Shown: one piece after another, positions 2,192 through 54,137 of the stretch
Layout of the letters: each line of letters opens with the position of its first letter
How positions within the stretch are numbered: position 1 is the first letter of the stretch
Assembly (NCBI RefSeq): GCF_017916275.1
Contig: NZ_JAFMST010000001.1
Coordinates: 186,001-250,000, forward strand
DNA from: Rubellimicrobium arenae
GTDB lineage: Bacteria; Pseudomonadota; Alphaproteobacteria; Rhodobacterales; Rhodobacteraceae
Direction: 5' to 3'
Length of the DNA stretch: 64,000 nucleotides
The notes under the pieces: model-generated
Databases searched by the model: none
Seen by the model: the letters and a program-made list of their open reading frames with translations, nothing else
Told to the model about the DNA's origin: nothing
Program-made: the position numbers and the translations under genes

Positions 2192-4102
2192 ATGACCATC
2201 GTCCGCAAGACCGAGACCGCGGAGGTCTCGGACGACCTGACCTTTGTGTTGAGCGACGGCACCGTGGACCGCTACGGCGATGTGATCGAGCCCGAAGGCT
2301 GGGACCTGCGCTGGTTCAAGCGCAACCCCATCGCCCTTTTCGGCCACGACAACGCCTTCCCGATCGGGAACTGGGCCAATGTCCGGATCGAAAGCGGGAA
2401 GCTCCTGGGCCAACTGAAGCTGGCCGACGAAGGTACGTCCGACCGTATCGACGAGCTGATCCGCCTGGTTCGCCAGAAGATCCTCAAGGCCGTGTCGGTG
2501 GGCTTCAAACCCATCGAGTACGAGCCCTTGGCCAACGGCAAGGGCGGCCTCCGGTATTTGAAGCAGGAGCTCCTGGAGACCTCGCTTGTGACCATCCCCG
2601 CGAACCCGGCGGCCTTGGCTGTCGCCCGGGCGCTGCACATCTCCGACGACACCATGCGTCTAGCCTTCGGCGAGCAAGCCATTCGGGGCGTGGGGCAGGG
2701 TCGCGGCACCAACGGCGTGAATGCCGCCACCTCTCCCTCTCAAGGAACCCAGACCATGACTTTGGCTGAACGCATCAAGGCGCTTCAGGACGGCATCGTG
2801 CAGAAGCGCGACCAGCTCCTGCAGCTGAACCAGGCGCAGGACCTCGACCTCGACGCCATCGACGAACTTAACGACCAGATCGAGACCGACGAGAAGGCCC
2901 TGGCTGGTCTGAAGCGATCCGAGCAGAACCTGGCCGCCCGAGCCGCCGCTGTGCCCAACTCCGGCACCGGGGCCGTGGCGCCGTCCGTTCCGGCCCAGGC
3001 GCGCCGCCCACTGGGCCTGCACATCGGCGAGCGCAAGCCGGTCGATCTGTTCTTCCGCGCGGCCGCCTGCCAGATCCATGCCGCCATGACGGGCAAGGAC
3101 GCCGACGAGGTCCGCCGACTCCGCTACGGCGACGACGAAGGGACCGCCATGCTGGTCCGTGCCGCGGTCGCCGGAGCGACCACTGGAGCGGCCGGCTGGG
3201 CGGCCGAACTGGTCAACACCGTCATGACCGACTTCCTGGAAACCCTGCGGCCTGCGTCGATCTACCCCGAACTCGCGGCGGCGGGAGGCGGGCGGCTGAA
3301 CTTCGGCCCGAACCAGGGCGCGGTAAAGGTCCCGGCACGCACCGCGACCCCGTCGATCGGCGGATCCTTCGTGGGCGAAGGCTCGCCCATCCCGGTCCGT
3401 CGTCTGGGGCTGACCTCGCAGACCCTGGGGCCTAAGAAGATGGGCGTCATCTCGGTGTTCTCGCGGGAGATCGCCAAGTACAGCAACCCCGCCATTGAGG
3501 CGCTGCTGCGCCGCGAGATCACGGCCGACACCGCCATCACGCTCGACAGCGTGCTGCTCGACGCCAACCCGGCTACGGCGGTGCGGCCGGCGGGGCTCCT
3601 GAATGGTGTGACCCCTCTGACGGCCACTGCGGGCGGTGGGGCGGCGGCGGTGCTGGGCGACATCCGCAAGCTGCGGGCGCCGTTCGACGCCGTGGGCGCG
3701 GGGCAGGGGCTGCGCCTCCTGATGTCGGAAGGCCAGCTCGAGTCCCTGCAACTGACCCCTGGGCCCGACGGCACGCTGGGCTGGGCGCAGGGCATCATCG
3801 ACCGCTACGATCCGATCACCTCCTCGGCGATCGCGTCGGGAACGCTGGTCATGGTGCGCGCCGCCGATTTCGTGACCGTCACGGGGGATGCGCCGGAGTT
3901 CGACCTGTCCGAGGAGACGGTGCTCCACATGGAAGACACGAGCCCGGCGCAGATCGGCGCGACTGGGACGCCCAACGTCGTGGCGGCCCCGGTGCAGTCG
4001 ATGTTCCAGACGGCGCAAACGGCCATCCGCATGCTGATGGACGTGAACTGGGCCATGGTCCGGACCGGCATGGTCCAGACGATCACCGGCGCGACCTGGT
4101 AA
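2192..4102 (+). CDS. Fused prohead protease and HK97-type major capsid protein
   Basis: A single 636-aa reading frame joins two proteins that are often separate. Residues 1 to about 155 match the HK97-family prohead protease: the candidate catalytic His lies in ALFGHD (H52), the Ser in KAVSVGF (S102), and ETSLVTIPANP follows. Residues about 185-240 form a coiled-coil segment like the delta/scaffold domain (LAERIKALQDGI onward). Residues about 290-636 resemble HK97-fold capsid protein, including GSFVGEGSPIP and the FSREIAKYS region. The protease would cut itself and the scaffold off after assembly. The start ATG has a GGATCC-type weak SD 7 bases upstream. Confidence 0.92.
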   Translation: MTIVRKTETAEVSDDLTFVLSDGTVDRYGDVIEPEGWDLRWFKRNPIALFGHDNAFPIGNWANVRIESGKLLGQLKLADEGTSDRIDELIRLVRQKILKAVSVGFKPIEYEPLANGKGGLRYLKQELLETSLVTIPANPAALAVARALHISDDTMRLAFGEQAIRGVGQGRGTNGVNAATSPSQGTQTMTLAERIKALQDGIVQKRDQLLQLNQAQDLDLDAIDELNDQIETDEKALAGLKRSEQNLAARAAAVPNSGTGAVAPSVPAQARRPLGLHIGERKPVDLFFRAAACQIHAAMTGKDADEVRRLRYGDDEGTAMLVRAAVAGATTGAAGWAAELVNTVMTDFLETLRPASIYPELAAAGGGRLNFGPNQGAVKVPARTATPSIGGSFVGEGSPIPVRRLGLTSQTLGPKKMGVISVFSREIAKYSNPAIEALLRREITADTAITLDSVLLDANPATAVRPAGLLNGVTPLTATAGGGAAAVLGDIRKLRAPFDAVGAGQGLRLLMSEGQLESLQLTPGPDGTLGWAQGIIDRYDPITSSAIASGTLVMVRAADFVTVTGDAPEFDLSEETVLHMEDTSPAQIGATGTPNVVAAPVQSMFQTAQTAIRMLMDVNWAMVRTGMVQTITGATW

Positions 4103-7317: not shown

Positions 7318-7862
7318 CTGTCCGCAGTTGGCGCGTGACTGAGCCCGAACCTGCCATCACGCTCGAGAACGCAAAGCGGGCGATCCGGGCGACCGACGAC
7401 GAGGATCCGCTGATCCTGAGCCTGATCGCCGCGGCATCCGAGCGGGTCGAGATCCTGACCGGCCGCGCCTTCGGGCCGCAAACCTGGGAGGTGATCTCGG
7501 CGGGCTTCCCCTCGGGCGGCATTGAATATGAATGGGGCCCGCTGGTGAGCGTGACGTCGATCGAGTACCTGCGCGCGGACGGCACAACTGGCTCGGTGCC
7601 GCTCGATGACCTCGATGTCGTGGAAGCCTCTGACTGCGGCTTCGTCCGGACACTGTCGACCTGGCCCGCCGCCCGGACGTCGGCGAATGCGGTCCGTATG
7701 CGCTATGTCGCCGGCCGAGGCTGGACGGACACGACCAGGCAAGCGGTCCGCCTTCTCGTGGGCCACTGGTTCAAGAACCGCGAAGCGGTCGGAGACGCGC
7801 AGGCGGAACTGCCGCTGGGCGCCTCGGCCCTCATCGCGAGCGTTCGGAGGATCGCCGTATGA
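7314..7862 (+). CDS. Head-tail connector protein (phiE125 gp8 / HK97 gp6-like)
   Basis: This 182-aa protein begins with a helical region typical of phage connector proteins: LENAKRAIRATDDEDPLI, then AAASERVEILTGRAF. A beta-rich middle and a C-terminal helix (RQAVRLLVGHWFKNREAV) follow. In this family the protein forms a ring below the portal. The ATGA overlap with the upstream gene and the ATGA overlap with the next gene show translational coupling through the neck module. Confidence 0.85.
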   Translation: MTVRSWRVTEPEPAITLENAKRAIRATDDEDPLILSLIAAASERVEILTGRAFGPQTWEVISAGFPSGGIEYEWGPLVSVTSIEYLRADGTTGSVPLDDLDVVEASDCGFVRTLSTWPAARTSANAVRMRYVAGRGWTDTTRQAVRLLVGHWFKNREAVGDAQAELPLGASALIASVRRIAV

Positions 7863-26640: not shown

Positions 26641-26680
26641 GACAAAGAACGGCCCCCGAGAGGAGGAGCTCCGGGGGCCG
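26641..26680 (-). terminator. - strand rho-independent terminator
   Basis: A 9-bp stem (CGGCCCCCG/CGGGGGCCG, 26650-26680); read on the - strand it is followed by TTCTTTGTCTG. It would stop transcripts arriving from the right. Confidence 0.6.
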
Positions 26681-26842
26681 AGTTTGCTCACCGCGGGAGG
26701 AGTGGTGCGGTGATCGAAGGGTTTACGGCGGAGGGAGCCACATCGTTCCTGGCCAGCCGGTCCGCTCAGCTTGTGTCCTAGCGGCAAGCTTCGAGATGAG
26801 CAGGGATGCCACCAGATCGGGCAGCTGGTACACAAGCGGAAA

Positions 26843-26992: not shown

Positions 26993-27118
26993 CTATTCGC
27001 CAGCATAAGGCAGTCGCAGATGCTCCGGCGTCTGGCTCTTGCGCCAGCCCCGGGCCCAGGCCTCAGGAAGTTTGGTCTCGAGCGGGTAATGGTGCTCCGT
27101 TTGTAGAAGGTCGCCCAC
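26993..27118 (-). pseudogene. Rmf/CrpP-like gene A, truncated copy
   Basis: A 41-codon frame whose last 30 residues (HYPLETKLPEAWARGWRKSQ, then TPEHLRLPY) match the intact A genes at 29239-29436 and 33809-34006 almost exactly. The N-terminal WC(N/K)GYAAGRAG half is replaced by unrelated sequence, and the usual C-terminal FEPRRPG is lost to an early stop. It could still start at GTG 27118, so a diverged short gene is possible, but truncation is simpler. Confidence 0.6.
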
Positions 27119-27255
27119 GTGGCTGCGCGGCGATCGAGGGGGCGTCTGCGACTACATTGCGGGTTCCTAAGTGACCGCCAGCGCACCAATGGCCTTTCTG
27201 CCCCCGGGGCACTCAATTGTACCGGTGGCCATCAAGGCTCGCGAGGCCCCGGAGG

Positions 27256-28293
27256 TTACTTTGACGGCTCTGACCTCCGATCATTCAAAGCGTCGATCTT
27301 TGTCACAAGATCCCGTTTGTCACCTTCAAGCCTCCTGATCCGTCGAAGAAGATGAAGCGTCAGCCCTCCAAAGACCTGGATCGTCTGCGTCGTTGACAGA
27401 TCCTGGTGTTCGGCCTGCTGCAGCGGGTTCATGTCCGTAAAAAGTGCGTCGCGCGTCAGGTACTTTTCCGCGACGGCTTGGTTGCTGGCCGCATAGCGCG
27501 CAAGAAGATCCTGGGCCTGGTGGTGCGATAGATACTTCAGGCCCGGGCGGTTCGGGAAATGATCCGACATTCCCTCGAAGATGCGACGCAGTTCGCGCTG
27601 CTCGCCGTAGATGTTGAGCGCCTTGAGGACCATGGTCAGTTCAAAGGACAGGCTGTCGTTGGCGCTCTCGATCTCTGGGGTGACCGTTGCGCCGTCCGGC
27701 CGGCCGACGGCCGTGAAGAAGTCCGACCATAGGGCGGTCCCTTGCAGACCTTCATACGGGCGGACGATGATGTTGCTGGCGCCGAAGGTCGCCGCCCAAG
27801 GCTCCAAAAGCTGGTCGTAATCCAAGCGCCAGGCTTCGTCCGCGATCACCTGATCGGCGGTGGTCTCACGGCCCACCTTGAGGATCTGTCCATACAGGGA
27901 GTCGATCCAGGCATCCTGCCGTCGCAGGTAGACAACGATCTTTGTGTCTGGGTCAAAAAGCTCCCGCAATCGTTCGATGCCCTGGAGCCGGAGCCCGGAC
28001 AGGTCCTCGGAACTGATGATGCCCGTGCCGCCGCCGTTCGAGATCTCCGTCTTGATGAAGTCCACATACGGGGCGAGCAGCGAGAAATCGGCGGAGGGCG
28101 TATGGCGCTTGCGTCGGCCCAAGATGGCGTGAGCCAGAAAGTGGTGGGCTGTTTCCGTGCGGGAGCCGACCACCGCGTTGGGGTCGGGATAGGTGATCCC
28201 CACCCGTTTTAGGTCCTGCGCTGTTCCAGTCAGGGCCTTTTGCAGGAACGTCGTCCCGGTTTTTTGCATCCCGATGTGAATATACGTGACCAT
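27256..28293 (-). CDS. Sulfotransferase family protein
   Basis: 345 aa. The N-terminus YIHIGMQKTGTTFLQKAL carries the 5'-phosphosulfate-binding loop (KTGTT) of PAPS-dependent sulfotransferases. VVYLRRQDAWIDSLYGQ (about residues 123-140) fits the 3'-phosphate-binding strand with Arg and Ser. The C-terminal helix is charged. Family members transfer sulfate to polysaccharide, lipid or other acceptors; the acceptor here is unknown. The gene is isolated between repeat-rich stretches, somewhat less GC-rich than the phage genes, and probably acquired. A surface-glycan-modifying cargo gene is plausible given the tailspike next door. Confidence 0.85.
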   Translation of the reverse strand: MVTYIHIGMQKTGTTFLQKALTGTAQDLKRVGITYPDPNAVVGSRTETAHHFLAHAILGRRKRHTPSADFSLLAPYVDFIKTEISNGGGTGIISSEDLSGLRLQGIERLRELFDPDTKIVVYLRRQDAWIDSLYGQILKVGRETTADQVIADEAWRLDYDQLLEPWAATFGASNIIVRPYEGLQGTALWSDFFTAVGRPDGATVTPEIESANDSLSFELTMVLKALNIYGEQRELRRIFEGMSDHFPNRPGLKYLSHHQAQDLLARYAASNQAVAEKYLTRDALFTDMNPLQQAEHQDLSTTQTIQVFGGLTLHLLRRIRRLEGDKRDLVTKIDALNDRRSEPSK

Positions 28294-28897
28294 TAGGACC
28301 TTTCGTTCATCCGCGTCATCGCGCCACTCGCCTCGTTTCTGGCCCGTTCAGGATCGGAAGTCTGTGCCCGGGACAGGGCCGCACCTCAGCCATGGGCGGC
28401 GGGGCCAAGGTCGTGACGAACGGCTGGGCTCTCGGCCCGGAGCTTCGTCGGCGTGGGCTCGCACCACCGCCTCCGGGCGGGGCGAGGGCAGGGTGGCGCG
28501 TTGACACAGCCCGATCCTTTCATGGCCGAGGAACCAAGCCCATCGAACAAGGAGAGAGGCGCGATGTTCCCCGCGGTTGGCTGACAATGGAGAGAGGCTG
28601 TCCCTGCAACGTCTCGCCCTGAGCCGTCCATCTGTGTGCACTCCGCTCCGAAATCCTGGGTCGGCTCGTGTAGGAGGCCGCCCATCGCGGCGGACGTGAG
28701 CTTTTCTTCCACGTGATTGTTTATCCTAGGCTATCGCTCTGATACCTCTGTCGGCGTACCAAACCGGCATCAAAGGGCCGTCCGCTTCAGTTCGCGTGCT
28801 CCCGAGTGGTCGGTTTGGGTCGAGGGCTGTTCCGATCCGGGTCATGTACCGTTGGATCGCGCCGGATGCGGCTGAGGCTGAGGAAGGGGACTGACCT
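28294..28897. other. Intergenic stretch with a partial copy of the hairpin repeat
   Basis: About 600 bases without a gene I can support on either strand. Positions about 28700-28860 align with the repeat found between genes B and A (the ACGTG...CCCGAGTGG core at 28710-28810), but without its strong hairpins. The part nearest 28294 would hold the sulfotransferase promoter; no clear -35/-10 pair is seen. Confidence 0.55.
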
Positions 28898-29077
28898 ATG
28901 ACAGACTATGTACCCAACCCAGGCAGCCCCGAGGCTGTTGCCCACGGCTGCACCTGCTCTGTTGAAGACAATCGAGGTGGCGCCGGAGCGGTAGATCCGA
29001 AGGTGGATTTCTGGGTGGACCCTGACTGCCCGTTGCATAGCTATGGGTGGCTGGAGCCAGTCGACGAAGACGCGTAG
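28898..29077 (+). CDS. 59-aa Cys-rich small protein, possible zinc-binding
   Basis: A + strand gene with an excellent AGGAAGGGG ribosome site 8 bases before ATG. The product starts MTDYVPNPGSPEAVAHGC and contains CTC (residues 18-20) and a later DPDCPLHSYGW, giving a CxC...CxxH set that could bind zinc. It ends in the acidic VDEDA. The N-terminal pattern recalls small proteins of phages and prophages. Function unknown. It is the only + strand gene in this otherwise - strand region. Confidence 0.65.
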   Translation: MTDYVPNPGSPEAVAHGCTCSVEDNRGGAGAVDPKVDFWVDPDCPLHSYGWLEPVDEDA

Positions 29078-29238
29078 CCGGCCCCCGAGCCGACGTACCC
29101 AGGAACCGAACGGGCCAGCCTTGGTTCTGACCTAACTCCAAGTCAACCGCCGCGCAGTCTCAGGCTGCATGCCAGAGCTACTTGGTTATGCAAGCTGAAG
29201 CCGATGCCCGCATTGTGCGACTTGGAGAGATCCTGACG

Positions 29239-29436
29239 TTACCGTTCGAGCCCCGGCCGGCGAGGTTCGAAGTACGGCAGCCGCAGATGCTCGGGAGTCT
29301 GGCTTTTGCGCCAGCCTCGCGTCCAGGCTTTGGCGAGCTTGGTCTCAAGCAGGTAGGGGTTCTCCAGGGCCAGGTGGCCTGCCCGGCCCGCCGCGTACCC
29401 ATTGCACCAGGCGTCGAGGGCGGTGTCCTGGGTCAT
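29239..29436 (-). CDS. Gene A1: Rmf/CrpP-like small protein
   Basis: 65 aa from ATG 29436 (MTQDTALDAWCNGYAAGRAG). The pattern WCxGYAAGRAG...ENPYxLETKLAKAWTRGWRKS resembles the ribosome modulation factor/CrpP fold (short helix, Gly-rich turn, NPY, WxxGW). Ribosome modulation factor hibernates ribosomes; CrpP-type proteins are small modifying factors. Which, if either, applies is open. The frame is open further upstream, but the paralogue at 33809 starts at the same residue. Its neighbours B1 and C1 lie upstream on the same strand. Confidence 0.7.
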   Translation of the reverse strand: MTQDTALDAWCNGYAAGRAGHLALENPYLLETKLAKAWTRGWRKSQTPEHLRLPYFEPRRPGLER

Positions 29437-29559
29437 CGCGGTCTCACGGGCTGCACCGCAGAACCAACCGGCTTGCCTCGTTCCGTTTCCTGAGCCGGAC
29501 TGTTCTTGGATCAGATCATAGACGGACCAGTGCTGTTCTAGTAGTTGTGCCCTACGTGG

Positions 29560-29723
29560 CTGCACAATCCTGGGTTGTTGTTCCGAGCGCTCAGGGGCGG
29601 CCGTGCGGATACCGAGGGGGCGTCCGCGACAGCATCACGTGCCCCCAAGTGGCCGGTCCGGGTCGAAAGCTGTTCTGATCCGTGACATGCGCCGTTGGGG
29701 GCGCGGTGGCCGCGACGCCCCCA
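29560..29723 (-). repeat. Hairpin repeat, copy R2
   Basis: An intergenic repeat between genes B1 and A1. It contains a GGGGGCG...GTGCCCCC inverted pair (from about 29616) and, 82 bases later, a tight hairpin (GGGGGCG/CGCCCCC with inner CGG/CCG, 29697-29722). The same arrangement with the same spacing occurs at R3 and R4. The hairpin lies about 50 bases past the stop of gene B, so it may terminate it. Confidence 0.65.
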
Positions 29724-29773
29724 CTTGCCCGATCAGCCGAACTGATGGTGAGGCCACGCCCCCAGTGCCAGCG

Positions 29774-30079
29774 TCAGCTTTCGTCGTTGCAGGACCCCCC
29801 TACGGCCGCGCCATGCAGCTCGGTCGCGCTCGTTCTCTGGACTTCAGCTTGGCGCAGGCACTGGCGCAGCGTCTCGCTGGCTGTGGCTACGATCCCCGCT
29901 TCCTGCAGGTGCGCGCCCACATCCAGATAAAAGTTTAAAAAGCCCGGACGGGCGATGCACAGCCGGGGCTTGGCTGCTTGCAGCCCTTCGGGATGCGCCA
30001 GGCTGGCCGAGACCGTGGTCTCGGGGTACTCGCGGCGGAGGTTCGCAGCCACTGCCGCGGCGAGGTCGTCCAAGGTCAA
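29774..30079 (-). CDS. Gene B1: small protein of unknown function, duplicated
   Basis: 101 aa. It begins MTLDDLAAAVAANLRREYPE, has the core PRLCIARPGFLNFYLDVGAH and continues LQEAGIVATASETLRQCLRQA. This core is conserved with B2 at 34554, where synonymous and conservative changes dominate, indicating that both copies have been under selection. One Cys in the core is shared. No family recognised. Confidence 0.68.
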   Translation of the reverse strand: MTLDDLAAAVAANLRREYPETTVSASLAHPEGLQAAKPRLCIARPGFLNFYLDVGAHLQEAGIVATASETLRQCLRQAEVQRTSATELHGAAVGGSCNDES

Positions 30080-30187
30080 GGTTGTTCACTCCGGAAGAGA
30101 CGGTGCCGCAAAGGACAACACCGGGAGGGCGTCACGCCAGCAGCCCGACTGCAAGACGCGGCTGGCGCGCCGCCCGCTACCACCTCC

Positions 30188-30400
30188 TCACGCCAGCCTC
30201 CAGCCCTTCGCTTCGCTATCGACCTCCACCTGCAGCCCGAAGAGCACCGATCCGGAGATGTCCCAGAGGCCGATCCCGGACCGGCTCAGCGCGGTGTAGC
30301 TGAAGCGGTCCAGCACGACAGACCGCGGGCGCTCCCCCCGGGCCTGCGCCGCGTTGCGGGCCCTCAGAATGTCATGGGCGAGTTCAATGGCGGAGGTCAT
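30188..30400 (-). CDS. Gene C1: small protein of unknown function, duplicated
   Basis: 70 aa: an N-terminal helix (IELAHDILRARNAAQARGE), then VVLDRFSYTALSRSG and a beta end VLFGLQVEVDSEAKGW. It is paralogous to C2 (34956) and, more distantly, to the 84-aa gene at 38523, which keeps the helix, the strand and a final W. It lies 108 bases upstream of gene B1 on the same strand and just after a hairpin terminator. Confidence 0.68.
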   Translation of the reverse strand: MTSAIELAHDILRARNAAQARGERPRSVVLDRFSYTALSRSGIGLWDISGSVLFGLQVEVDSEAKGWRLA

Positions 30401-30423
30401 AGGGCAATTGGGGTCCTGGCTGC

Positions 30424-30461
30424 GTCACGAAGAAGGCCCGCCGCCTGCGGGACGGCGGGCC
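30424..30461 (-). terminator. Terminator hairpin upstream of gene C1
   Basis: A 9-bp perfect stem (GGCCCGCCG/CGGCGGGCC). On the - strand it is followed by TTCTTCGTG. The equivalent hairpin at 35204-35229 differs by one base pair changed on both sides (C-G to T-A), so pairing is conserved. Confidence 0.7.
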
Positions 30462-30718
30462 ATGTCGGTCGCTCCCCAGTCAAGGGAGTCCGACCTGCCG
30501 GGGTTTTCGGAGAGGGCGGCACTGTCCGGCTGATCCGCCGCAGCCGAGGGGTGACTGCGCGGCGACAGTGATGGGCGTTCTGGGCCTTTGTTGGGCAAGA
30601 ACGAGATAATCAGGGGCAGGGTAGGGGTAAGTCTGTGTCGGCCTCACCCTGAGGGTCGGGCCTAGGCCGACGACAAAGCCAGGGTAGGGCTCTGACGTCG
30701 CTTCCTCGGCAGCTAGGA
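30462..30718. other. Remnant of the CxxC small gene, first cassette
   Basis: The - strand sequence at about 30480-30560 matches the 3' part of the 48-aa CxxC gene at 35273-35419 (RLRRISRTVPP versus RLRWISRTVPPF). The second Cys codon of CxxC and the stop codon are lost, so the frame runs on to 30402. It is probably a broken copy. Nothing else is supported here. Confidence 0.45.
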
Positions 30719-30862
30719 TTACAAGATCAGAGCGAGGAGCCAGAGCCGCAGGACCGCCACGACACCGTACCAGATCCCCAGATGGACGATCAGAACGCCC
30801 TTGGGAGCCCATACCTCGGCAGCCGCTATGACAAAGCCGCAGACGATAAGGTACGTGATCAC
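30719..30862 (-). CDS. 47-aa two-helix membrane protein
   Basis: From GTG 30862: VITYLIVCGFVIAAAEVWAP, then KGVLIVHLGIWYGVVAVLRL and LLALIL. Two hydrophobic helices are separated by a short polar turn. The frame is open upstream to a TAG about 36 bases away without ATG, so the start is uncertain and the gene may be 5' truncated. No ribosome site stands out. Confidence 0.4.
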   Translation of the reverse strand: MITYLIVCGFVIAAAEVWAPKGVLIVHLGIWYGVVAVLRLWLLALIL

Positions 30863-31015
30863 GACCGGATCCGGTCCTAGCTGCCCGAGGTGGAGCAGTA
30901 GCTAGCGTGGGCGTAGCTCTGGACTAGGACCGGACGGCGCGTGGAAGTTCCTACGAGGACTGAGATCAAGGGCCTTCTGTAGGCAATGGACGGCCTCGGG
31001 GTCCGAGCTTTGCCT

Positions 31016-31052
31016 CGTTAAGAAGCCCTCGGGGCCATTGTTGTCCGAGGGC
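31016..31052 (-). terminator. - strand terminator
   Basis: An 8-bp perfect stem (GCCCTCGG/CCGAGGGC, 31025-31052); on the - strand it is followed by TTCTTAACG. It lies 53 bases past the stop of the frame at 31105-31437 and supports that frame being transcribed. Confidence 0.6.
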
Positions 31053-31104
31053 CGATCGGCTGCCGCCCATGCCCGTGGGCGGGCGCCTCATGGTTCATCC
31101 GCCC

Positions 31105-31437
31105 TCAGCTGGATGTGAGGCCCCCATCACGGCGGCATGGAAGCGGCTTGGGGGACCGGACGAGGGGGGCTGGCATGAGGTTGAGCAGAAAGGTCCGCCA
31201 AGCCGAGGGCGGAAGCAGCTCAGAGTGGGGCGGCGTCGCCGCTTCGGGATCGAACGCGTGCACCATGGCCCGCTGACCCAGAAAAACGCGACGTTCCATG
31301 CTGCGATAGTCGCAGGCCCAGTAGACCCCGAAGGCGCTGCGGAACTCTCCCAGGTAGCGATGCTCCAGCCGCACGAAGCCCTTCGTGACTAGGGTCGTCT
31401 TCGCCGAAGGTCTTCTTGCAAGGGTCACGCGTGCCAA
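31105..31437 (-). CDS. Hypothetical protein
   Basis: 110 aa with a protein-like middle (FVRLEHRYLGEFRSAFGVYWACDY, shown here only in part: GFVRLEHRYLGEF and YRSMERRVFLGQRAMVHAFD). The C-terminal Pro/Leu-rich end is less convincing. No family is recognised. A terminator follows on the same strand. Start codon uncertain. Confidence 0.38.
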   Translation of the reverse strand: MARVTLARRPSAKTTLVTKGFVRLEHRYLGEFRSAFGVYWACDYRSMERRVFLGQRAMVHAFDPEAATPPHSELLPPSAWRTFLLNLMPAPLVRSPKPLPCRRDGGLTSS

Positions 31438-31716
31438 TCTGTCCTCCCTGATTCATGCATGAACACGGCCGGTTATCCTCCCCGCCGGCCGGCGCGACGG
31501 TGCGTCCAATAAGTTCTGATGCTTTGGCCGGCCTGAACAAGCCTGGCGCTGGCAACAATCCGTCACGTCTGGATTGCGGAACCAACTCGGGGCACGTGCA
31601 TTCATAGTGCTTTCGTCCGCCCCTCGGTGGGTGGGCTGGGACCATCGCGGCGCGGCGGCTGCGAAGCCCTCACTCGCTAGGTCAATCCCCAAGTTCCCCC
31701 GCTGACCGCCTTGCGC
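31438..31716. other. Intergenic stretch, nothing supported
   Basis: No gene, repeat copy or convincing hairpin is seen in these 279 bases apart from short GC palindromes (CCGGCCGG near 31490). Promoters for the gene to the left would be expected here. Confidence 0.5.
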
Positions 31717-31935
31717 TCAGCTTGCCCAGCGCTCGCGACAGGTCATCTCTGTACTCGCGCAGTCCTGCAGATCCGCCTGAAACTGCTCCAGGCGCTGGCG
31801 GGCCTGGCGCAGGTCCCCGCCCTCCCGGCGCAGCTTCCGCACCAGCTGGTCCTGGCGGGCGTAGTAGGATCTGACCTCGTGAACACGCGAGGTGGCCCGG
31901 GCAAGGTGGGCTGTCAGCGTGCGTTCATTGTCCAT
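31717..31935 (-). CDS. Small coiled-coil protein
   Basis: 72 aa starting MDNERTLTAHLARATSRVHE, chosen because upstream sequence in frame overlaps the DUF6894-like gene. Almost the whole protein is a charged helix (QDQLVRKLRREGGDLRQARQ), with two Cys at the end (DCASTEMTCRE). Possibly the partner of the gene just upstream; function unknown. Confidence 0.58.
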   Translation of the reverse strand: MDNERTLTAHLARATSRVHEVRSYYARQDQLVRKLRREGGDLRQARQRLEQFQADLQDCASTEMTCRERWAS

Positions 31936-31991
31936 GGTGCCCTGAACCGGGCAGGTCGGGAGTTGTTCCCGGGTTGCGTAGATCTCTGCCC

Positions 31992-32225
31992 CTAAGGCCG
32001 GGCCATCGAGCCTCGGATGCTGACCGTGCAGAGGGTCGCGCCCAGCTCGTCGGTGACATGCACCTGCCATTCGGGTGTGGTCCAGAACGCGCCATCCGCC
32101 TCTTTCAGCACCTCTCCCGCGAGCCTGGCGGCTTCGGCGCGGGCCTCGATCGGACCGGAGAGCTCGATGCCGACCTCGTCGGGAGCGGATCCATCGCCCC
32201 GGACGTCGAAGTAGTAATGCGGCAT
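31992..32225 (-). CDS. DUF6894-like small protein
   Basis: 77 aa from ATG 32225 with the pattern MPHYYFDVRGDGSAPDEVGI, then RAEAARLAGEVLKEAD and WQVHVTDELGATLCTVSI. This is the layout of the DUF6894 family, small beta-alpha proteins common in Alphaproteobacteria with no known role. It precedes the coiled-coil gene by 56 bases on the same strand. Confidence 0.72.
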   Translation of the reverse strand: MPHYYFDVRGDGSAPDEVGIELSGPIEARAEAARLAGEVLKEADGAFWTTPEWQVHVTDELGATLCTVSIRGSMARP

Positions 32226-32347
32226 AAGGCTTCCCTTCCCGCCCCGAACACGCCGGCGAGCAAGATGTTCCCAGGTGCTAGCCCCAACGGAACCAAGCTG
32301 TCCCAGTGGAAAGTGGAGGCAGGGAACCAAATCCCGGCCGAAAGTGC

Positions 32348-32542
32348 CTATCCAGACTGCGACGAGCCCGCCTGAGACTGAGCCAGCAGATCCAAGAGGA
32401 GCTGGAAGCGCAGGTCCCCTCCGTGATGCTCGGGGAGCGGGTAGGCCTGGCGCAGGCAGGGCAAGATGCTCTCCGTCGCGGATCCCCTGCCTTCGCTAAA
32501 ACCATTAGGCACGAAGGCGTGGGGGTAGTTGGTCAAACTCAT
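32348..32542 (-). CDS. Gene D: small protein with a decayed second copy
   Basis: 64 aa from ATG 32542: MSLTNYPHAFVPNGFSEGRG, core ESILPCLRQAYPLPEHHGGD, then LRFQLLLDLLAQSQAG. The core recurs at 35660-35790 with two in-frame stops. Length, start and function are uncertain; the conserved match between copies is the main support. Confidence 0.45.
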   Translation of the reverse strand: MSLTNYPHAFVPNGFSEGRGSATESILPCLRQAYPLPEHHGGDLRFQLLLDLLAQSQAGSSQSG

Positions 32543-33294
32543 GATGTCCCAATCGGAAGCCGGCACCATCTTACCCAACCTCCGATGAGAGAAGATCGTT
32601 CTACTTACCTCAGGGAAATGATCGGCGCCGATGGGCCCCAGCAATCCCAGAAACACAGAACCCCGCCAGACTAGGATGTGCCTGGAGCGATTATAGCGAG
32701 GAAGGCTGCCCAGGAGGCGGAAGCCCAGGCAGCCTTTCGGGATCCCGTGTATCGGCACTGAGGCTCCGATGTAGTGTTAGGTTACCTTCCCGCCGGAGTG
32801 CGAGCCCATCGATAGGTTAGGTGCCACGCCCCCGACGCCCAATGGCGGCGAAGATCACAGAGGCGATGATCTCGGCCTCCGCATGAGCGTCCATGCCGTC
32901 CAGTGTGCGAAAGTCGTCAGCGGGACCCGCCCCGTCGTCAGGCCAAACAGGATTTAGCACTTCGCCGACGAGGACCGCAGCTCCTTCGTTACGCCAACCC
33001 TGGAGGCTTCAGTCGTCCATTCTGGCATGGATCGAGGCATTGAGAGCGCCCAGGGTGCAGGCTCCGGAAACTGCCATCGTCCGCCTCCATGTTGGGCTGG
33101 CCCCTTAGAGATGGGTGCTCCCGAGGGGACGGCGGCAAGCCTCGCTCAGGATCGTAGCTCGCCACCTTCACGCAACCCCCGCGCACGGCCGAAGTTCCAG
33201 GTGGGTAGAACGACTTGCCCAAGCCGGCCTAGTGCGCAGACTCTGACCACAGGCGACGCTATTGCCCGTACCAGGGGAGAGGCTTGCCTTCGCC
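32543..33294. other. Sparse stretch with one short reading frame
   Basis: Apart from the 47-codon frame annotated at 32817, nothing convincing is seen in these 750 bases. A second short - strand frame (MAVSGACTLGALNASIHARM, ending near 33015) directly precedes it and may be part of the same broken gene. Confidence 0.45.
32817..32960 (-). CDS. Short acidic protein or gene fragment
   Basis: 47 codons from GTG 32960 (VLNPVWPDDGAGPADDFRTL, then DGMDAHAEAEIIASVIFAAI). A GGCGAA ribosome-like site is present. The end is helical and hydrophobic. The frame is open upstream to a TGA near 33015, after which another frame continues with similar composition, so it may be a fragment of a longer gene. Confidence 0.3.
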   Translation of the reverse strand: MLNPVWPDDGAGPADDFRTLDGMDAHAEAEIIASVIFAAIGRRGRGT

Positions 33295-33627
33295 TTAACC
33301 CGCCTGAGCAGACAGGTGATGCTCCTTAGAGGGCCCGGGGTCGCCTGGGTCATTCGCCGCGACCCCTGTATTCCCCGTGCGGGCCGTCACAGCCAGTCCA
33401 AGCGCCCGCACGAGCCGGAGCAGGACCGGGAGGGGCATGGCAGCAATGTCCGCTGGCCGCAGCTGATCGGTCAGATGCTCCTTGGCTGTTACTCGACCGA
33501 TGCACCGCAGGGCATGCGCGATGAAGGCTGGGTCGCCCGTCTCGAGGGCGTCGGCCAGAAGGTCGGCCTGCGTCTCGGCCGTGGGAGCAAGCTTGCTCGC
33601 ATCATAAGGATAGCCGCGGAGGGGCAT
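33295..33627 (-). CDS. Putative addiction-module antidote protein (HigA-like)
   Basis: 110 aa. Residues about 18-80 resemble the addiction module antidote family: ETQADLLADALETGDPAFIA, HALRCIGRV, then PVLLRLVRALGLAVTA at the dimer helix. The usual helix-turn-helix between these is altered (TAKEHLTDQLRPADIAAMPL), so DNA binding may be weakened. No toxin (HigB/RelE-like) frame is visible nearby, so it is an orphan or remnant. Confidence 0.55.
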   Translation of the reverse strand: MPLRGYPYDASKLAPTAETQADLLADALETGDPAFIAHALRCIGRVTAKEHLTDQLRPADIAAMPLPVLLRLVRALGLAVTARTGNTGVAANDPGDPGPSKEHHLSAQAG

Positions 33628-33808
33628 GGCCTAAAACCCAGATACTCAGCAGGTTCGGGATGTTGGGACCGAACCGAATTGGTCGACCCCGCTGATCTCC
33701 TAACCTGCGGCCGAATTTGCTGCAATCTAAGATTGCGCGTCTAAGCAACTTAGTTGTGCAGGCCGAAGCCGGTGCTCGCCTTTTGTGCGACGTGGAAAGT
33801 TCTTGGCG

Positions 33809-34006
33809 TCACTGATCGATGCCCGGCCGGCGAGGTTCGAAGTACGGCAGCCGTAGATGCTCCGGCGTCTGGCTCTTGCGCCCCCCCCGCGCCCAGACTT
33901 CGGCGAGCTTGCTCTCGAGCGGGTAGGGGTTCTCCAGGGCCCGGTGGCCGGCCCGGCCGGCGGCGTATCCCTTGCACCAGGCATCGAGGGCATTGTCCTG
34001 CGGCAT
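33809..34006 (-). CDS. Gene A2: Rmf/CrpP-like small protein
   Basis: 65 aa, paralogue of A1 with the same start and end (MPQDNALDAWCKGYAAGRAG; HLRLPYFEPRRPGIDQ). The second Trp of the WxxGW motif is replaced (WARGGRKS), a possible loss of function. Sequence flanking both copies on the 3' side is also alike (29180-29240 versus 33745-33808), so the duplicated block is larger than the gene. Confidence 0.7.
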   Translation of the reverse strand: MPQDNALDAWCKGYAAGRAGHRALENPYPLESKLAEVWARGGRKSQTPEHLRLPYFEPRRPGIDQ

Positions 34007-34089
34007 CGCGGTCTCGTGTGCTGCGCCGCAGAACCAACCGGCTCGCCTCGTCCGGGTTCCTAAGCGGTCCGTAGACCTGAGACCGATTT

Positions 34090-34272
34090 TCTGTTAGGTT
34101 AGCTCCACGTGGCTGCCGGATCCTGGGTCGTTGCTGCAGCGCTCGGGGGAGCACTAGCGGATACCGAGGGGGCGTCCGTGGCGGCTCACGTGCCCCCGAG
34201 TGGCTAAGCCGGGCACCCAGCCATCTGCCCGGGTCGCAAGCCGTCCGGGGGCGCGGTGGCCGCGACGCCCCC
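34090..34272 (-). repeat. Hairpin repeat, copy R3
   Basis: Same architecture as R2: an inverted GGGGGCG/GTGCCCCC pair from 34168 and a tight hairpin GGGGGCG/CGCCCCC at 34247-34272, 80 bases apart. It is followed after about 245 bases by a tandem copy, R4. Confidence 0.65.
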
Positions 34273-34334
34273 ACCCATGCGCCCGGCCCGAACTCCCTTG
34301 CAAAATGGTCAGCCTGGACTGCGGAGCCTCCGAG

Positions 34335-34517
34335 GTTAGGTCCTCAACCACGTGGCTGCCCATCACAGGCTATCGCCTCGACGGCCTGGCCGGTGTGGTA
34401 CACGGACACCGAGGGGGCGTCCACGGCAGCTCATGTGCCCCCGAGTGGCTGATCCAGGCGTCATGCTGTCTGCCTGGGTGGCAAGCCGTCCGGGGGCGCG
34501 GTGGCCGCGATGCCCCC
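34335..34517 (-). repeat. Hairpin repeat, copy R4 (tandem with R3)
   Basis: Its landmark bases lie 244-245 positions after those of R3, so the block between genes B2 and A2 has been duplicated in tandem. The tight hairpin (34492-34517) has TGCCCCC in place of CGCCCCC, which still pairs through G-T. Confidence 0.65.
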
Positions 34518-34553
34518 ACTTACCCTAACAGCCGGGCGGCCAGGATCGCAGTG

Positions 34554-34868
34554 TCAGCGTTCGTCGCTGCAGGACGCCCCGACAGCCGCGCCATGCAACT
34601 CGATCTCGCTCGTCCTCTTGGCGCCTGCCTGCCGCAGGCACCGCAGGAGCGTCTCGGTCACCGTGGCCACGATCCCCGCCTCGTGCAGATGCGCGCCCAC
34701 CTCCAGATGGAAGTCCAGAAAGCCCGGACGGGCAATGCACAGCCGGGGCTCGGCTGGCCGGGGCCATCCAGAGGGCGCGGCGCCGGCTGAGACTACGACG
34801 TCGGCAAACTCGCGGCCGAGCGTTGCGGCCACTGCCGAGGCGAGGTCGTCAGGGGTCAACGGAGCCAT
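34554..34868 (-). CDS. Gene B2: paralogue of B1
   Basis: 104 aa: MAPLTPDDLASAVAATLGRE, core PRLCIARPGFLDFHLEVGAH, then LHEAGIVATVTETLLRCLRQ. Compared with B1 it is conserved in the central 50 residues and variable in the first linker. The frame is intact. It overlaps nothing and is followed by repeat R4 on its 3' side. Confidence 0.68.
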   Translation of the reverse strand: MAPLTPDDLASAVAATLGREFADVVVSAGAAPSGWPRPAEPRLCIARPGFLDFHLEVGAHLHEAGIVATVTETLLRCLRQAGAKRTSEIELHGAAVGASCSDER

Positions 34869-34955
34869 CTCTTTGGAAGGAGGGCCTGTTTACTCACATC
34901 CTGCTGAAGTGTCACGCCCGTCCGAATTGCCGCTTTGCCGCCCGCTCCACTCGCC

Positions 34956-35168
34956 TCACACCAGCGTCCAGCCCTCGGCCTTAATGTCAACCTCGACCTG
35001 CAGCCCGAAGAGCACCGGCCTCGCCCCGCTCCAGCCACCGAACTCGGAGCGGCTCAGGGTCTCATGCGTGCAGCGATCCAGGATCAGGACAGTGGGAGGG
35101 GCCCCGCGTGCCTCCGCCTCGTTGCGAGCCTGGAGAATGGAGTGAGCAAGGTCGGTGGCAAAGATCAT
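34956..35168 (-). CDS. Gene C2: paralogue of C1
   Basis: 70 aa from ATG 35168 (MIFATDLAHSILQARNEAEA), then VLILDRCTHETLSRSE and VLFGLQVEVDIKAEGW. The frame extends further upstream (to 35327), but that part crosses the conserved terminator hairpin, and the paralogue C1 starts at the matching ATG. Intact; function unknown. Confidence 0.68.
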   Translation of the reverse strand: MIFATDLAHSILQARNEAEARGAPPTVLILDRCTHETLSRSEFGGWSGARPVLFGLQVEVDIKAEGWTLV

Positions 35169-35203
35169 GGCAGCAACCTGGGTCCTAATCACATCACGAA
35201 GGC

Positions 35204-35229
35204 GGCCCGTCGCCGGGCGACGACGGGCC
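35204..35229 (-). terminator. Terminator-like hairpin upstream of gene C2
   Basis: A 9-bp stem (GGCCCGTCG/CGACGGGCC) equivalent to the one at 30435-30461 with one compensatory base-pair change. It directly follows the stop of the CxxC gene (35273) on the - strand. Confidence 0.68.
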
Positions 35230-35272
35230 TTGTCAGTCTGCCCCATCAAGGGAGTCCGACGTGCCGGGGTTG

Positions 35273-35419
35273 TCAGAACGGCGGCACTGTCCGGCTGATC
35301 CACCGCAGCCTGGAACACTGGCTGCACACCTCAGATGACGGACGTTCACGGCTCTTGTGGGGCTCTGCCAAGGCAACCAAAGTCAGAGCGGCGGCAAGTC
35401 TGTGTTGGGCTGTGTCCAT
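35273..35419 (-). CDS. 48-aa CxxC small protein
   Basis: From ATG 35419 with AGGG a few bases upstream. A helical N-terminus (MDTAQHRLAAALTLVALAEP) is followed by VCSQCSRLRWISRTVPPF, where the CxxC and basic stretch resemble half of a zinc ribbon. A conserved hairpin terminator follows. The copy in the first cassette has lost the second Cys and the stop. Confidence 0.42.
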   Translation of the reverse strand: MDTAQHRLAAALTLVALAEPHKSRERPSSEVCSQCSRLRWISRTVPPF

Positions 35420-35979
35420 GCCCTATCCCGTTGCGGAGCTTGTAGCCCCTGAGGCAAAGGAACACTCTCGGGGGCTCTTGGCTCGCCTTAAAATATGATC
35501 CCAGCAGGGCGCCCGAGGCGGATCTGGCTCGCCCCAGGCTCGGAAGGGGTCTCCCTTGACGGCAAACCCCTTCCTCACAGTTGGTTAGGGTAGGTTCTGA
35601 TACGGGGCAATTTGGCCTTTGGAGGTATGGCTCGGCCCGGTTGGCTACTCAGACCTGGGCTCAGCCTCCCAGAGGTTGAACTGGCAACTCCAAAAGGCTC
35701 TGGAAGTGCAGGTCGCTCTCGTGGTCCCTGGAAAGCGGGTAGGCTTAGCGCACGCAGGGCCGGATGCTGCCAGCGGTGGGGTAAAAAGCGGCCCCGCCGA
35801 AGCGGGGCCGAGCACCAGGATCAGAGTGCGATCGCTTCTCCCGGGCGGCCGGCTCCGTGGAGCCGGACTGGGTCGCCGGACCAGCCGGCTTCACGTCGTG
35901 TAGAATCCACCCATCTCCTTTGTCTAGCTACCCTCGGAGTTCCAGTCGCAAGAGCTGCTGGTTGCCATTTCTACTCAGG
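35420..35979. other. Decayed copy of gene D and flanking sequence
   Basis: Positions about 35660-35780, read on the - strand, match gene D (SIRPCVR, stop, AYPLSRDHESDLHFQSLLEL against SILPCLRQAYPLPEHHGGDL), with stops in place of Gln and later. The rest shows no gene I can support. The - strand terminator at 35782-35810 abuts the decayed copy. Confidence 0.5.
35782..35810 (-). terminator. - strand rho-independent terminator
   Basis: An 8-9 bp stem with CGAA loop (GGCCCCGC/GCGGGGCC, 35790-35809); on the - strand it is followed by GCTTTTTACC. Strong. The nearest - strand frame ending to its right is the weak one at 35980. Confidence 0.72.
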
Positions 35980-36369: not shown

Positions 36370-36501
36370 TCACACCAGGAACCCGCAAATACAGTCCGAC
36401 GCTTCTTTCTCCCCCCGCGAGCAGGTCACCTCGGGTCACTGAGGGAATGTGACCGGCAGGGTTATCCGTACCGCCTGGAGTAAGGAAATTGCGTTGTCCC
36501 T
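36370..36501 (-). pseudogene. Decayed hicB copy
   Basis: Read on the - strand from 36501, the codons give RDNAISLLQAVRITLPVTFP then Q, stop, PEVTCSRGEKEAS. They align in one frame with MDYAISLTPDDNDTLLVTCP, QLPEVTSYGETEAD of the intact hicB at 38035-38451. The start ATG is AGG, a Leu codon is TGA, and another stop follows at 36370. The 72-base spacing to the upstream gene is also kept. Confidence 0.78.
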
Positions 36502-36572
36502 GCTGCCCCATCTTCCTGAGCCTTTGTCCAATGTCCGACACGTCCGACGGCAGATGGTTCGAGCGAACAGCG

Positions 36573-36824
36573 TCAGGGCTTGCCCCTGATCTCCCACCCC
36601 TCGACCTGATCGTCCACCACGACCGGGACACCGAACAACGAGTGCGTTGACGGACCAGCCGCCCAGTAGCCATGTTTGTCCTTGCACAGGCGGGCCTGGA
36701 CGGACAGCCCCAGGACTATGCATGTCGGCTGCTTACCTCAATTTCCCATGCGGCTGAGTTCGCGAGCGATTGCTTCGGCTACAGTGCGCCCGTCTGCAGA
36801 CCGCGGAGGAGCGTCATTACTCAG
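36573..36824 (-). pseudogene. Decayed copy of the 84-aa gene
   Basis: An in-frame full-length relative of 38523-38777: ADGRTVAEAIARELS, a TGA stop, then CIVLGLSVQARLCKD and GPSTHSLFGVPVVVDDQVEG, WEIRGKP. The start GTG is CTG. The absence of indels with one nonsense change suggests recent inactivation. It stands immediately before the decayed hicB, as in the intact operon. Confidence 0.78.
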
Positions 36825-38034: not shown

Positions 38035-38451
38035 TCACGCCGCCTCGACGTGCACTGACGCCCTCTGGCCCAGCGCGGCAAAGGCCTGCTCGTACTGGTC
38101 CAGGCGCGTGGCGTGCCGGGCGTGGAAAAGGCGATCGACCTGGGGCCGGTGCCAGGACAGCCGGCGGGCGAGCTCGGCCCTGGTGATGCCCTCCGCTTCC
38201 AAGGCCCACATGAGCCGGACCTTGATCTCGATCTGCAGCCCGACCTTCACCTTGGGGCCATCGGTCAGCTCCGGCCGGGGGATCCGCCAGAAGTGGGACA
38301 GCCGGGCGGCGAGAGCCTCCTCGACCGCCAGCCGTCCCATGGTCAGAGCGTCCGCCTCGGTCTCGCCATAGGACGTGACCTCGGGCAGCTGCGGGCAGGT
38401 GACGAGCAGGGTATCGTTGTCGTCGGGTGTCAGGCTGATTGCATAATCCAT
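38035..38451 (-). CDS. hicB: HicB-family antitoxin-like protein with C-terminal HTH
   Basis: 138 aa from ATG 38451. The N-terminal HicB fold reads MDYAISLTPDDNDTLLVTCP, PQLPEVTSYGETEADALTMG, RLAVEEALAARL. The C-terminal half (GITRAELARRLSWHRPQVDR LF) is a phage-type helix-turn-helix that would bind its own promoter. HicB normally neutralises the mRNA interferase HicA, but no HicA frame is visible beside it; the upstream neighbour is an 84-aa protein of different type. It is therefore an orphan HicB or a regulator paired with that gene. Confidence 0.82.
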   Translation of the reverse strand: MDYAISLTPDDNDTLLVTCPQLPEVTSYGETEADALTMGRLAVEEALAARLSHFWRIPRPELTDGPKVKVGLQIEIKVRLMWALEAEGITRAELARRLSWHRPQVDRLFHARHATRLDQYEQAFAALGQRASVHVEAA

Positions 38452-38522
38452 GATGACCCATCCTCCTGGGCCCTTATCTGGCATCCAGCGTTGCAGCCAA
38501 TAGAACTGTTGATCAGGCAGCG

Positions 38523-38777
38523 TCAGGACTTGCCCCTGATCTCCCACCGCTCGACTTGGTCGTCCACCACGACCCGCACGTTGAAGATCGAGTACCGGGA
38601 GGGCCCGCTGTGAGTGAATACTAGGTCGTCCCGGTGCAGCCTCTCGAACACGGCCGGCCCGATCGCGATCGACACCGGCTTCTCGCCCCGACTGCGGAAG
38701 GCTACGAGGTCGCGGGCGATGGCTTTCGCTAGGGTCAGGCCGTCCGTATCAGGGATGGGTGGGTGCTTCCGGCTCAC
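38523..38777 (-). CDS. 84-aa protein, hicB neighbour, with decayed paralogues
   Basis: 84 aa from GTG 38777, whose codon overlaps the stop of the upstream gene (GTGA). Helix TDGLTLAKAIARDLVAFRSR, then VSIAIGPAVFERLHRDDLVF and a beta end RYSIFNVRVVVDDQVERWEI. It is distantly like genes C1 and C2 (same order of helix, strand, and final VxVD...W). No family recognised. It is coupled upstream to the 82-aa gene and stands 71 bases before hicB. A role as toxin is conceivable but not shown. Confidence 0.72.
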   Translation of the reverse strand: MSRKHPPIPDTDGLTLAKAIARDLVAFRSRGEKPVSIAIGPAVFERLHRDDLVFTHSGPSRYSIFNVRVVVDDQVERWEIRGKS

Positions 38778-39539: not shown

Positions 39540-39728
39540 TGCCTTTCCTCTCGGTCCGGCAATCGTTGCGGCTTTTACAGGACACAGTGCAAGTCATTGA
39601 TCTTCCTTCGCACACCGCTTGCCGCTTTTACACCATAAGCCACTGATGAATTGGAGGAAATGAGGTCCCTCCGGGATCGCCATCCGGCCCGTTCGCTTCG
39701 CTTGACAGGCGAGGGTGGGTTCCCCTGA

Positions 39729-40712
39729 GTGGGGAGGACAGCAACTCGGAAACGGACAACTCCTGTGGCACGGATCGAGGCGGACGCCTCCATTGATCTT
39801 GACGACCTCGACCTTCACCGTCTTCGCGTCAGGTCGGAGAAATCCAGTTTTCTCGACGACATCTCGGTTCGCCTGAATGGCGAAAGGTATCAGGATGTCT
39901 ACGAGGTGCTGTCGAACGACGGGAGCATCAGCAGCGACTTCGGTGGCAAGCGACTGGTTTTCGACGACGAGCAGCAGCGGCTCGTCGATGGATCCGTCAC
40001 CGGGATCGTGGAATTCATCTACCAGGGTTCGAACCAGTGGAAACTCTGGTGGAGCCTTCAAGGTGTGGAACTTCCGGCGGTCAAACTCTGGAGCGCCTCG
40101 CTGACCGTCTCGGCCAAGGACGACGCTGCGATCGTCCGGGCCGCACTCTCCGGCGACGACAGCTTCCGATTGTCGGATCAGTCGGATCGGGCAAGGGGTT
40201 TCGACGGCAATGATACGCTTGAGGGACGCGGAGGCGACGATTCGCTCTTTGGCGGAGCAGGCCAGGACAGCATTTCTGGTGGTGCTGGCCACGACGTCCT
40301 GAATGGAGGAGACGGCGGCGACGTCCTGCGGGCAGGTCGTGGGGCGGACAGCCTTGCAGGCGGTGAGGGGCGCGACGTCCTGATCGGCGGGATGGACGAC
40401 AATCCGGACGTGTTCCTGTTCAGGTCGGTCCGCGACAGCCGCATCGGTGCGGCGGACGCTGTCGAGAACTTCACCTCGGCGATCGAGAGCGGTGACCACA
40501 TCGACCTGAGGTCGATCGACTCGAACATTACGCATCAAGGCAACGATGCATTCGATTGGGCGGGAAAGGCCGCCAAGGGTCATGCCGTGTGGTGGACCGC
40601 AGCCGGGACCGATATCTTGCTCAAGGCGGACGTCGACGGCGATGCGGCGGCGGATCTCGTCATTCGGCTGCGCGACCTGGATGGCCTGTCCAGGAACGAC
40701 GTCTGGCTCTGA
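39729..40712 (+). CDS. RTX-type calcium-binding repeat protein
   Basis: 327 aa from GTG 39729 (an alternative GTG is 39765). Residues about 150-215 contain six or more GGxGxDxL nonapeptides (GFDGNDTLEGRGGDDSLFGG, AGQDSISGGAGHDVLNGGDG). The C-terminal part (DAVENFTSAIESGDHIDLRS ... GDAAADLVIRLRDLDGLSRN) is the serralysin-like end used as a type I secretion signal. The N-terminal 140 residues are of unknown function. No type I exporter genes are nearby. It lies convergent to the enolase-superfamily gene. Confidence 0.82.
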   Translation: MGRTATRKRTTPVARIEADASIDLDDLDLHRLRVRSEKSSFLDDISVRLNGERYQDVYEVLSNDGSISSDFGGKRLVFDDEQQRLVDGSVTGIVEFIYQGSNQWKLWWSLQGVELPAVKLWSASLTVSAKDDAAIVRAALSGDDSFRLSDQSDRARGFDGNDTLEGRGGDDSLFGGAGQDSISGGAGHDVLNGGDGGDVLRAGRGADSLAGGEGRDVLIGGMDDNPDVFLFRSVRDSRIGAADAVENFTSAIESGDHIDLRSIDSNITHQGNDAFDWAGKAAKGHAVWWTAAGTDILLKADVDGDAAADLVIRLRDLDGLSRNDVWL

Positions 40713-54084: not shown

Positions 54085-54137
54085 CATTCCTGTCACAACG
54101 GCTTCCTGGCGTGACGGGCGAAATTCAATGGAGCGCT
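54085..54137 (+). ncRNA. SAM/SAH riboswitch upstream of metK
   Basis: The sequence matches the small pseudoknotted SAM/SAH class known upstream of metK in Rhodobacterales: CCTGTCACAACGGCTTCCTG, GCGTGACGGG, spacer, then CAATGGAGCG. The first stem pairs CGTGACGGG-side bases with CCTGTCAC, and the 3' part containing GGAG, the metK ribosome site, pairs back into the loop (CTTCC), so ligand binding would block translation. It ends 4-5 bases before the metK ATG. Confidence 0.88.

Follow-up and report, generated by a model that had tools for sequence, protein, structure and literature searches.

Stand-alone capsid A-domains are known chiefly from hyperthermophilic archaea, for which PMC8346489 terms the role of the A-domain protein speculative. 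The Family 4 'A-domain encapsulins' described there (PF08967/DUF1884; PF0899, PDB 2pk8) are known from the thermophiles it names, and the archaeal members lie downstream of an enzyme in a two-component operon. Also relevant here are the Proteo-phage-1 RNA (RF03044), whose core motif lies upstream of or between phage genes, and the RMF/CrpP fold proteins (PF04957). We report a small cassette, present twice in a prophage of Rubellimicrobium arenae, in which a Proteo-phage-1-like RNA precedes three short genes named A, B and C. The DNA analyzed (the window) is a stretch of 64,000 nucleotides, positions 186,001 to 250,000 of contig NZ_JAFMST010000001.1. New here are the extended form of the RNA and the A-domain-like fold predicted for A, whose duplicated prophage family has a further member among the head genes of another prophage.

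Both cassettes lie on the minus strand and are read in the order RNA, A, B, GC-rich repeat, C (Table 1). Comparison of the window DNA with itself gave two alignments far above chance, 29606-30644 with 34403-35411 (70.4% over 1049 columns, E 4e-156) and 29154-29724 with 33722-34274 (76.8% over 574 columns, E 8e-118). The duplicated segments overall are 29154-30644 and 33722-35411, and a DNA search of the whole genome recovered the same cassette pair and one further 93-base piece. The copies are spaced by 4570 nucleotides for C, 4780 for B and 4768 for A, all frames are open in both cassettes, and the amino-acid identity between copies is 54% for A (70 codons), 65% for B (101) and 80% for C (65). 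These data show a block duplication, a single event involving some 1.5-1.7 kb. An initial annotation of this DNA had already read a duplicated cassette with A, B and C in the same order and strand and a repeat inside it, and all of this holds, the repeat being present once in cassette 1 and twice in cassette 2. Its internal layout needs correction: the repeat sits between B and C, not between B and A, and the conserved hairpin region exists but lies upstream of A. The CxxC frame that it took to be shared by both copies was not recovered twice; the sole recognised open reading frame of this kind (28898-29077, plus strand) is outside the duplication, and no second copy appeared in the DNA comparisons, the window not having been searched with its protein. 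This frame has no match in phages, Pfam, PHROGs or NCBIfam. Beyond that annotation we found a third, partial C and two more A-family copies, A4 and, at approximately 36579-36797, A3. A second duplication, 36420-36794 / 38370-38744 on the minus strand (64%), comprises part of a HicB-like gene with the adjacent A-family frame.

The three frames are maintained by selection. Between the copies the NG86 dN/dS is 0.32 for A, 0.41 for B and 0.24 for C (pooled 0.35, dS 0.59); the initial annotation had proposed dN/dS as a check, and values of 0.24-0.41, not near 1, show purifying selection on all three. The bootstrap 95% ranges of pN/pS are 0.32-0.69, 0.33-0.72 and 0.14-0.60, respectively. Of 170 changes, 82 fall on third positions (p 4e-5 overall; 0.018 for A, 0.021 for B and 0.003 for C). 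In a six-frame control pN/pS in the coding frame was 0.48 for A, 0.49 for B and 0.29 for C, against 1.06-2.41 in four other frames. The antisense frame that shares the wobble position gave similar values (0.64, 0.51 and 0.31), and therefore the ratio alone does not separate it from the coding frame, but for every gene this antisense frame is broken by a stop in one copy or both. Conservation within the cassette is highest in the RNA core (45 of 50 aligned bases), followed by C (169/198) and the hairpin part of the RNA (52/62); the A-B spacer (56/86) and the gap before A (17/28) are less conserved.

The AlphaFold model of A copy 2, based on an alignment of copy 2, copy 1 and A4, reached a pLDDT of 90.1 in the best of five models. 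The 50 structures listed for A by VIA-align were phage heads, encapsulins or A-domain-like entries, and small uncharacterised phage proteins were frequent among the best BFVD structure matches. A relative of A was found in another prophage (G287), within the head gene cluster and between an assembly-type gene and the capsid gene; it begins before the preceding 329-aa gene ends, and about 1 kb on comes the gene of the major head protein. The fold predicted for A from the model and its structure matches is a stand-alone HK97 capsid A-domain. The predicted fold matches the A-domain region of phage capsid proteins, but A is without all other capsid domains and sequence similarity was not found. 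What A shares with Family 4 encapsulins is a fold predicted to consist of the HK97 A-domain alone. Since the PF08967 sequence family was tested and the A copies are unmatched by it (Pfam, E up to 1), A is not called a Family 4 encapsulin. Further differences are that A occurs in a prophage of a mesophile-type order, and that instead of lying downstream of an enzyme it follows an RNA and precedes B and C, none of them an enzyme family; the bacterial Family 4 members are likewise without enzyme operons, according to PMC8346489. We regard A as a predicted A-domain-only HK97-like protein, a variant within that kind.

With tblastn, A copy 2 had no match in phages or plasmids and A4 had none in phages. 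Among 390 genomes sampled from the host's order, the A profile gave weak matches outside this genome (best E 0.0028) and none that is convincing as a close relative, and pattern scans of viral contigs for relatives of A or B (112, 177 and 60 stretches) returned none. PDB sequence searches with A, B and C gave nothing convincing. The A profile did hit light-harvesting chains of 9vfj (E down to 8e-4), with no passing stretch, and these matches were taken as compositional.

Ahead of each A gene cmscan detected Proteo-phage-1, at 30549-30493 (41.1 bits) and 35327-35259 (28.7 bits). Both score under the Rfam gathering score of 42 bits, and for this reason the RNAs are called Proteo-phage-1-like. 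A third copy (30.7 bits) stands alone in host DNA of this genome, on contig C36. The window RNAs share with RF03044 the core motif and the location near phage genes; they differ in preceding A, B and C and in continuing, past the core, through a bulged hairpin to a terminator-like one. The bulged hairpin and then the separate terminator-like hairpin were found downstream of the core in 6 of 7 folded sequences, and in the seventh, from locus L212, both form and their outer pairs merge into each other. In both cassettes the RNA ends about 30 bases before A; in cassette 1 the terminator-like stem occupies 30461-30435 and A starts at 30400. Covariation was analyzed in six sequences (the two window copies, the C36 copy, one from locus L150 and two from L212): 8 of 30 pairs are altered on both sides, a number reached by 0 of 500 shuffles, and slid structures gave at most 3. 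One of five covariation measures, the number of further pair types, was not above the shuffles (197/500). The pseudoknot pairs are invariant, so covariation is silent on the pseudoknot. In layout, a structured RNA plus a terminator-like element before phage genes, the window RNAs may be compared by analogy to the late-leader and antiterminator RNAs of phages, such as the lambda 6S leader and HK022 put.

The nearest RNAs in named genomes, among the 80 listed of 109 pattern-matched stretches, are those of L150 and L212, both Rubellimicrobium. A filter for a downstream CCGGC element, applied to these 80, was passed by four, of which L150 and L212 were kept and L216 and L222 were dropped by eye, without a covariance search. 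With RF03044 in cmscan, L150 and L212 scored 39.5 and 37.1 bits and the second L212 copy 36.1 bits, all under the cut-off. In Rubellimicrobium mesophilum (L212) the two Proteo-phage-1-like RNAs lie within 7 kb (1119-1200, plus strand; 7582-7674, minus strand), and both carry the hairpin and the terminator-like part. A tblastn search of the RNA-bearing genome-contig loci with A, B, C and A4 gave a best E of only 0.07. The extended RNA model (R1), in whose building both window sequences were used, matched 5 of the 390 genomes at E up to 0.01, and full-length matches among sequences outside model building scored 58.4 bits (G144) and 46.7 bits (G257). The RF03044 model matched 16 of the 390 genomes at E up to 0.05, two of them over the cut-off, and at least one of the weak matches (G389) is inside a gene. 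In three genomes (G368, G257 and G052) the RNA directly follows a gene taken by eye for an HK97-type capsid gene. In 24 virus stretches with the core pattern it is often in the gap before small membrane-protein or terminase/portal-type genes (roles by eye), and an RMF-fold match was found in one of 15 virus records with the core motif, below cut-off.

Judged by its sequence, C is an RMF-fold protein. Both copies are over the PF04957 cut-off of 27.9 bits (34.0 and 28.5 bits) and, as a difference from the RMF/CrpP fold proteins, have a C-terminal tail of about 20 residues past the matched part. A scan of viral contigs with C picked out 13 stretches, none of them related to it, and in phages just two Arthrobacter phage matches were found (E 0.4). 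Two more RMF-fold loci over the Pfam cut-off are present in this genome outside the prophage (C34:219213-219341, which adjoins a tRNA-Tyr gene, and C22:140761-140874).

B is an orphan in every search made. B copy 2 had no tblastn match in phages or plasmids, and the B profile gave no convincing relative in the 390 genomes (best E outside this genome 0.0014). Nine B profile matches, when translated, were mutually alike; by eye they were taken to be the shadow of a frame in a conserved host gene, and they were dropped. A scan of genome contigs with a trimmed B alignment (112 stretches) returned zero relatives, although it needs near-exact short peptides and would miss diverged ones. When this genome was searched with HPF/RaiA (PF02482), the host gene on C36 was the sole match up to E 10, and B was not matched. 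Folds that bind double-stranded RNA were absent among the matches listed for B, which does not exclude such a fold. The initial annotation had held that its proposal would fall if the B and C families were absent elsewhere; C belongs to a widespread fold family, while for B no relative was found.

The GC-rich repeat between B and C forms strong hairpins and occurs at 29560-29742, 34086-34292 and 34330-34537, in diverged form at 28690-28872 and as a fragment at 27121-27177. Its three strong places genome-wide are all in this region, and no Rfam match overlaps it at E up to 1. A further duplicated pair in the region is 32345-32470 / 35642-35768.

The initial annotation had placed these small proteins in a prophage, which is borne out. 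A tyrosine-integrase gene (PF00589, E 4e-17) adjoins tRNA-Arg(TCT) at contig position 167599-167675, the final 18 bases of this tRNA recur at 39665-39682 of the window, and genes for a terminase, a fused prohead protease/capsid, a tape measure and an endolysin lie between the two ends. On this genomic evidence the integrase/tRNA junction, the 18-nt repeats and the phage genes bound a prophage of about 58 kb. The cassettes are inside it, between attR and the last large gene of the structural cluster, which ends at 25814 and has no PHROG match. PADLOC recognised no family for A4 or for either copy of A, B and C (E up to 0.1), in agreement with the earlier suggestion that the genes may form an unrecognised system.

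We tentatively favor, at somewhat less than even chances, an accessory ('moron'-type) prophage cassette under purifying selection, with A acting on capsids and C on ribosomes. The RNA would serve as leader or small RNA; by restricting transcription of A, B and C, its terminator would leave these genes to be read only under some condition, e.g. induction or superinfection. A may meet capsid subunits via its capsid-like surface, either those of the prophage's own head or those of a competing phage, and a lone A-domain would disturb capsomer assembly. C may bind the ribosome as RMF does, damping translation. The net effect would most likely be that, during lysogeny, production of phage heads is tuned or a second phage is hindered. 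Several results count against this proposal. Only 2 of the 5 AlphaFold models of A are confident, on an alignment of three sequences; Z is below 8 for all VIA-align structures, the best E of the model in a PDB Foldseek search is 0.089, and A showed no similarity to three capsid proteins when profiles were compared. The RF03044 cut-off is missed narrowly by one window RNA and widely by the other, the promoter/terminator scan found no sigma-70-type promoter, and its 4 terminator sites compare with 3.7 expected by chance, with the stem listed in the cassette 1 RNA only. The C copies stay below the NCBIfam cut-offs for RMF (best 20.2 and 21.3 bits vs 40) and Rmf_CrpP_fam (14.9 and 14.5 bits vs 28), B is without relatives, and in the searches made no other genome showed the RNA together with A, B and C. 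Because there is one genome and both copies derive from one block duplication, the linkage counts once, and the earlier claim that the genes are selected as a set is not supported. For separate specificities of the two copies, also suggested earlier, there is no direct evidence, the set being seen in this genome only.

The cassettes may instead be no more than prophage debris, duplicated locally while the region decays, with frames that are kept by recent or single-gene selection and have no joint function. The two other duplications of the region, the C fragment and the TGA-bearing A-family copy nearby, the lack of relatives of B, the RNA that stands alone in host DNA and the single RMF-fold match among the RNA-core virus records all fit this reading, but three frames that stay open in both copies, with such dN/dS at a dS of about 0.6 and a third-position excess significant for each gene, speak against it, and we consider it rather unlikely. 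Also unlikely, in our estimation, is that the phage uses A simply as a small protein for head morphogenesis or as a head accessory, its neighbors being incidental. Its relative upstream of a major head protein gene and the small phage proteins among its best BFVD matches would suit such a role; on the other hand, A and the late genes are on opposite strands, the capsid gene (2192-4102 of the window) is some 25-31 kb away, and A stands between an RNA of its own and a following RMF-fold gene. A ribosome-hibernation module seems the least probable; in it the RMF-like C would be partnered by B as a small HPF-like protein, and A would be a side component.

A duplicated and selected A-domain family in a prophage, with a relative among phage head genes, would be a tractable place to probe what a lone capsid domain does. 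The RNA extends an Rfam family by two elements, one of them terminator-like, and its proposed role as leader or small RNA is directly testable. A bolder version, which we hold to be quite improbable, is that prophages have recruited one capsid domain as a small protein in its own right, which interferes with the assembly of capsids and would be the bacterial counterpart of capsid-derived restriction factors. It would be bundled, behind a self-terminating Proteo-phage-1-like RNA, with a ribosome-silencing protein, its duplication would serve diversification, and the whole would be an unrecognised system directed at competing phages.

Table 1. Features of the two cassettes and of related sequences (window coordinates).
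Feature	Position	Strand	Evidence
Cassette 1 RNA: Proteo-phage-1-like pseudoknot core, bulged hairpin, terminator-like hairpin	30429..30543	-	RF03044 41.1 bits; R1 99.8 bits
Gene A copy 1, 70 aa, predicted HK97 A-domain-like by likeness to modelled copy 2	30188..30400	-	
Gene B copy 1, 101 aa, TTG start, orphan	29774..30079	-	model pLDDT 69.9
Repeat between B and C, cassette 1	29560..29742	-	
Gene C copy 1, 65 aa, RMF fold	29239..29436	-	PF04957 34.0 bits
Cassette 2 RNA	35198..35308	-	RF03044 28.7 bits; R1 97.6 bits
Gene A copy 2, 70 aa, predicted HK97 A-domain-like fold	34956..35168	-	model pLDDT 90.1, structure matches
Gene B copy 2, 104 aa	34554..34868	-	
First of the two B-C repeats of cassette 2	34330..34537	-	
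Second of the two B-C repeats of cassette 2	34086..34292	-	
Gene C copy 2, 65 aa, RMF fold	33809..34006	-	PF04957 28.5 bits
A4, further intact frame of the A family, 74 aa with a provisional start codon	38526..38747	-	
A3, A-family copy with one internal TGA	36579..36797	-	51% identical to A4
Fragment of third C	27006..27098	-	DNA identity 80-83% to other two
attR candidate, 18-nt exact copy of tRNA-Arg 3' end	39665..39682	+	

Other features were found around the cassettes. Just past the structural genes, 26644-26751 (minus strand) has sub-threshold matches to the alphaproteobacterial small RNAs ar14 (36.4 vs 58.8 bits) and CcsR1 (35 vs 65.3). A gene between the structural genes and the cassettes (27256-28293, minus strand) has a sub-threshold sulfotransferase match (23.7 bits vs a cut-off of 27). 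Between the cassettes there is a DUF6894 protein (31992-32225, minus strand; 69 bits vs 24.1). At 33295-33627 (minus strand) a short antitoxin-like protein is encoded, whose N-terminal match to HI1420-type antidotes is far below the cut-off (23.1 of 53.7 bits); it also matches a phage repressor family, and no toxin partner was recognised. Immediately outside attR lies an RTX-repeat protein gene (39729-40712, plus strand; PF00353, E 3e-15). A SAM/SAH riboswitch over the Rfam cut-off (54087-54135, plus strand; 57.4 bits) precedes a gene that by eye is metK-like.

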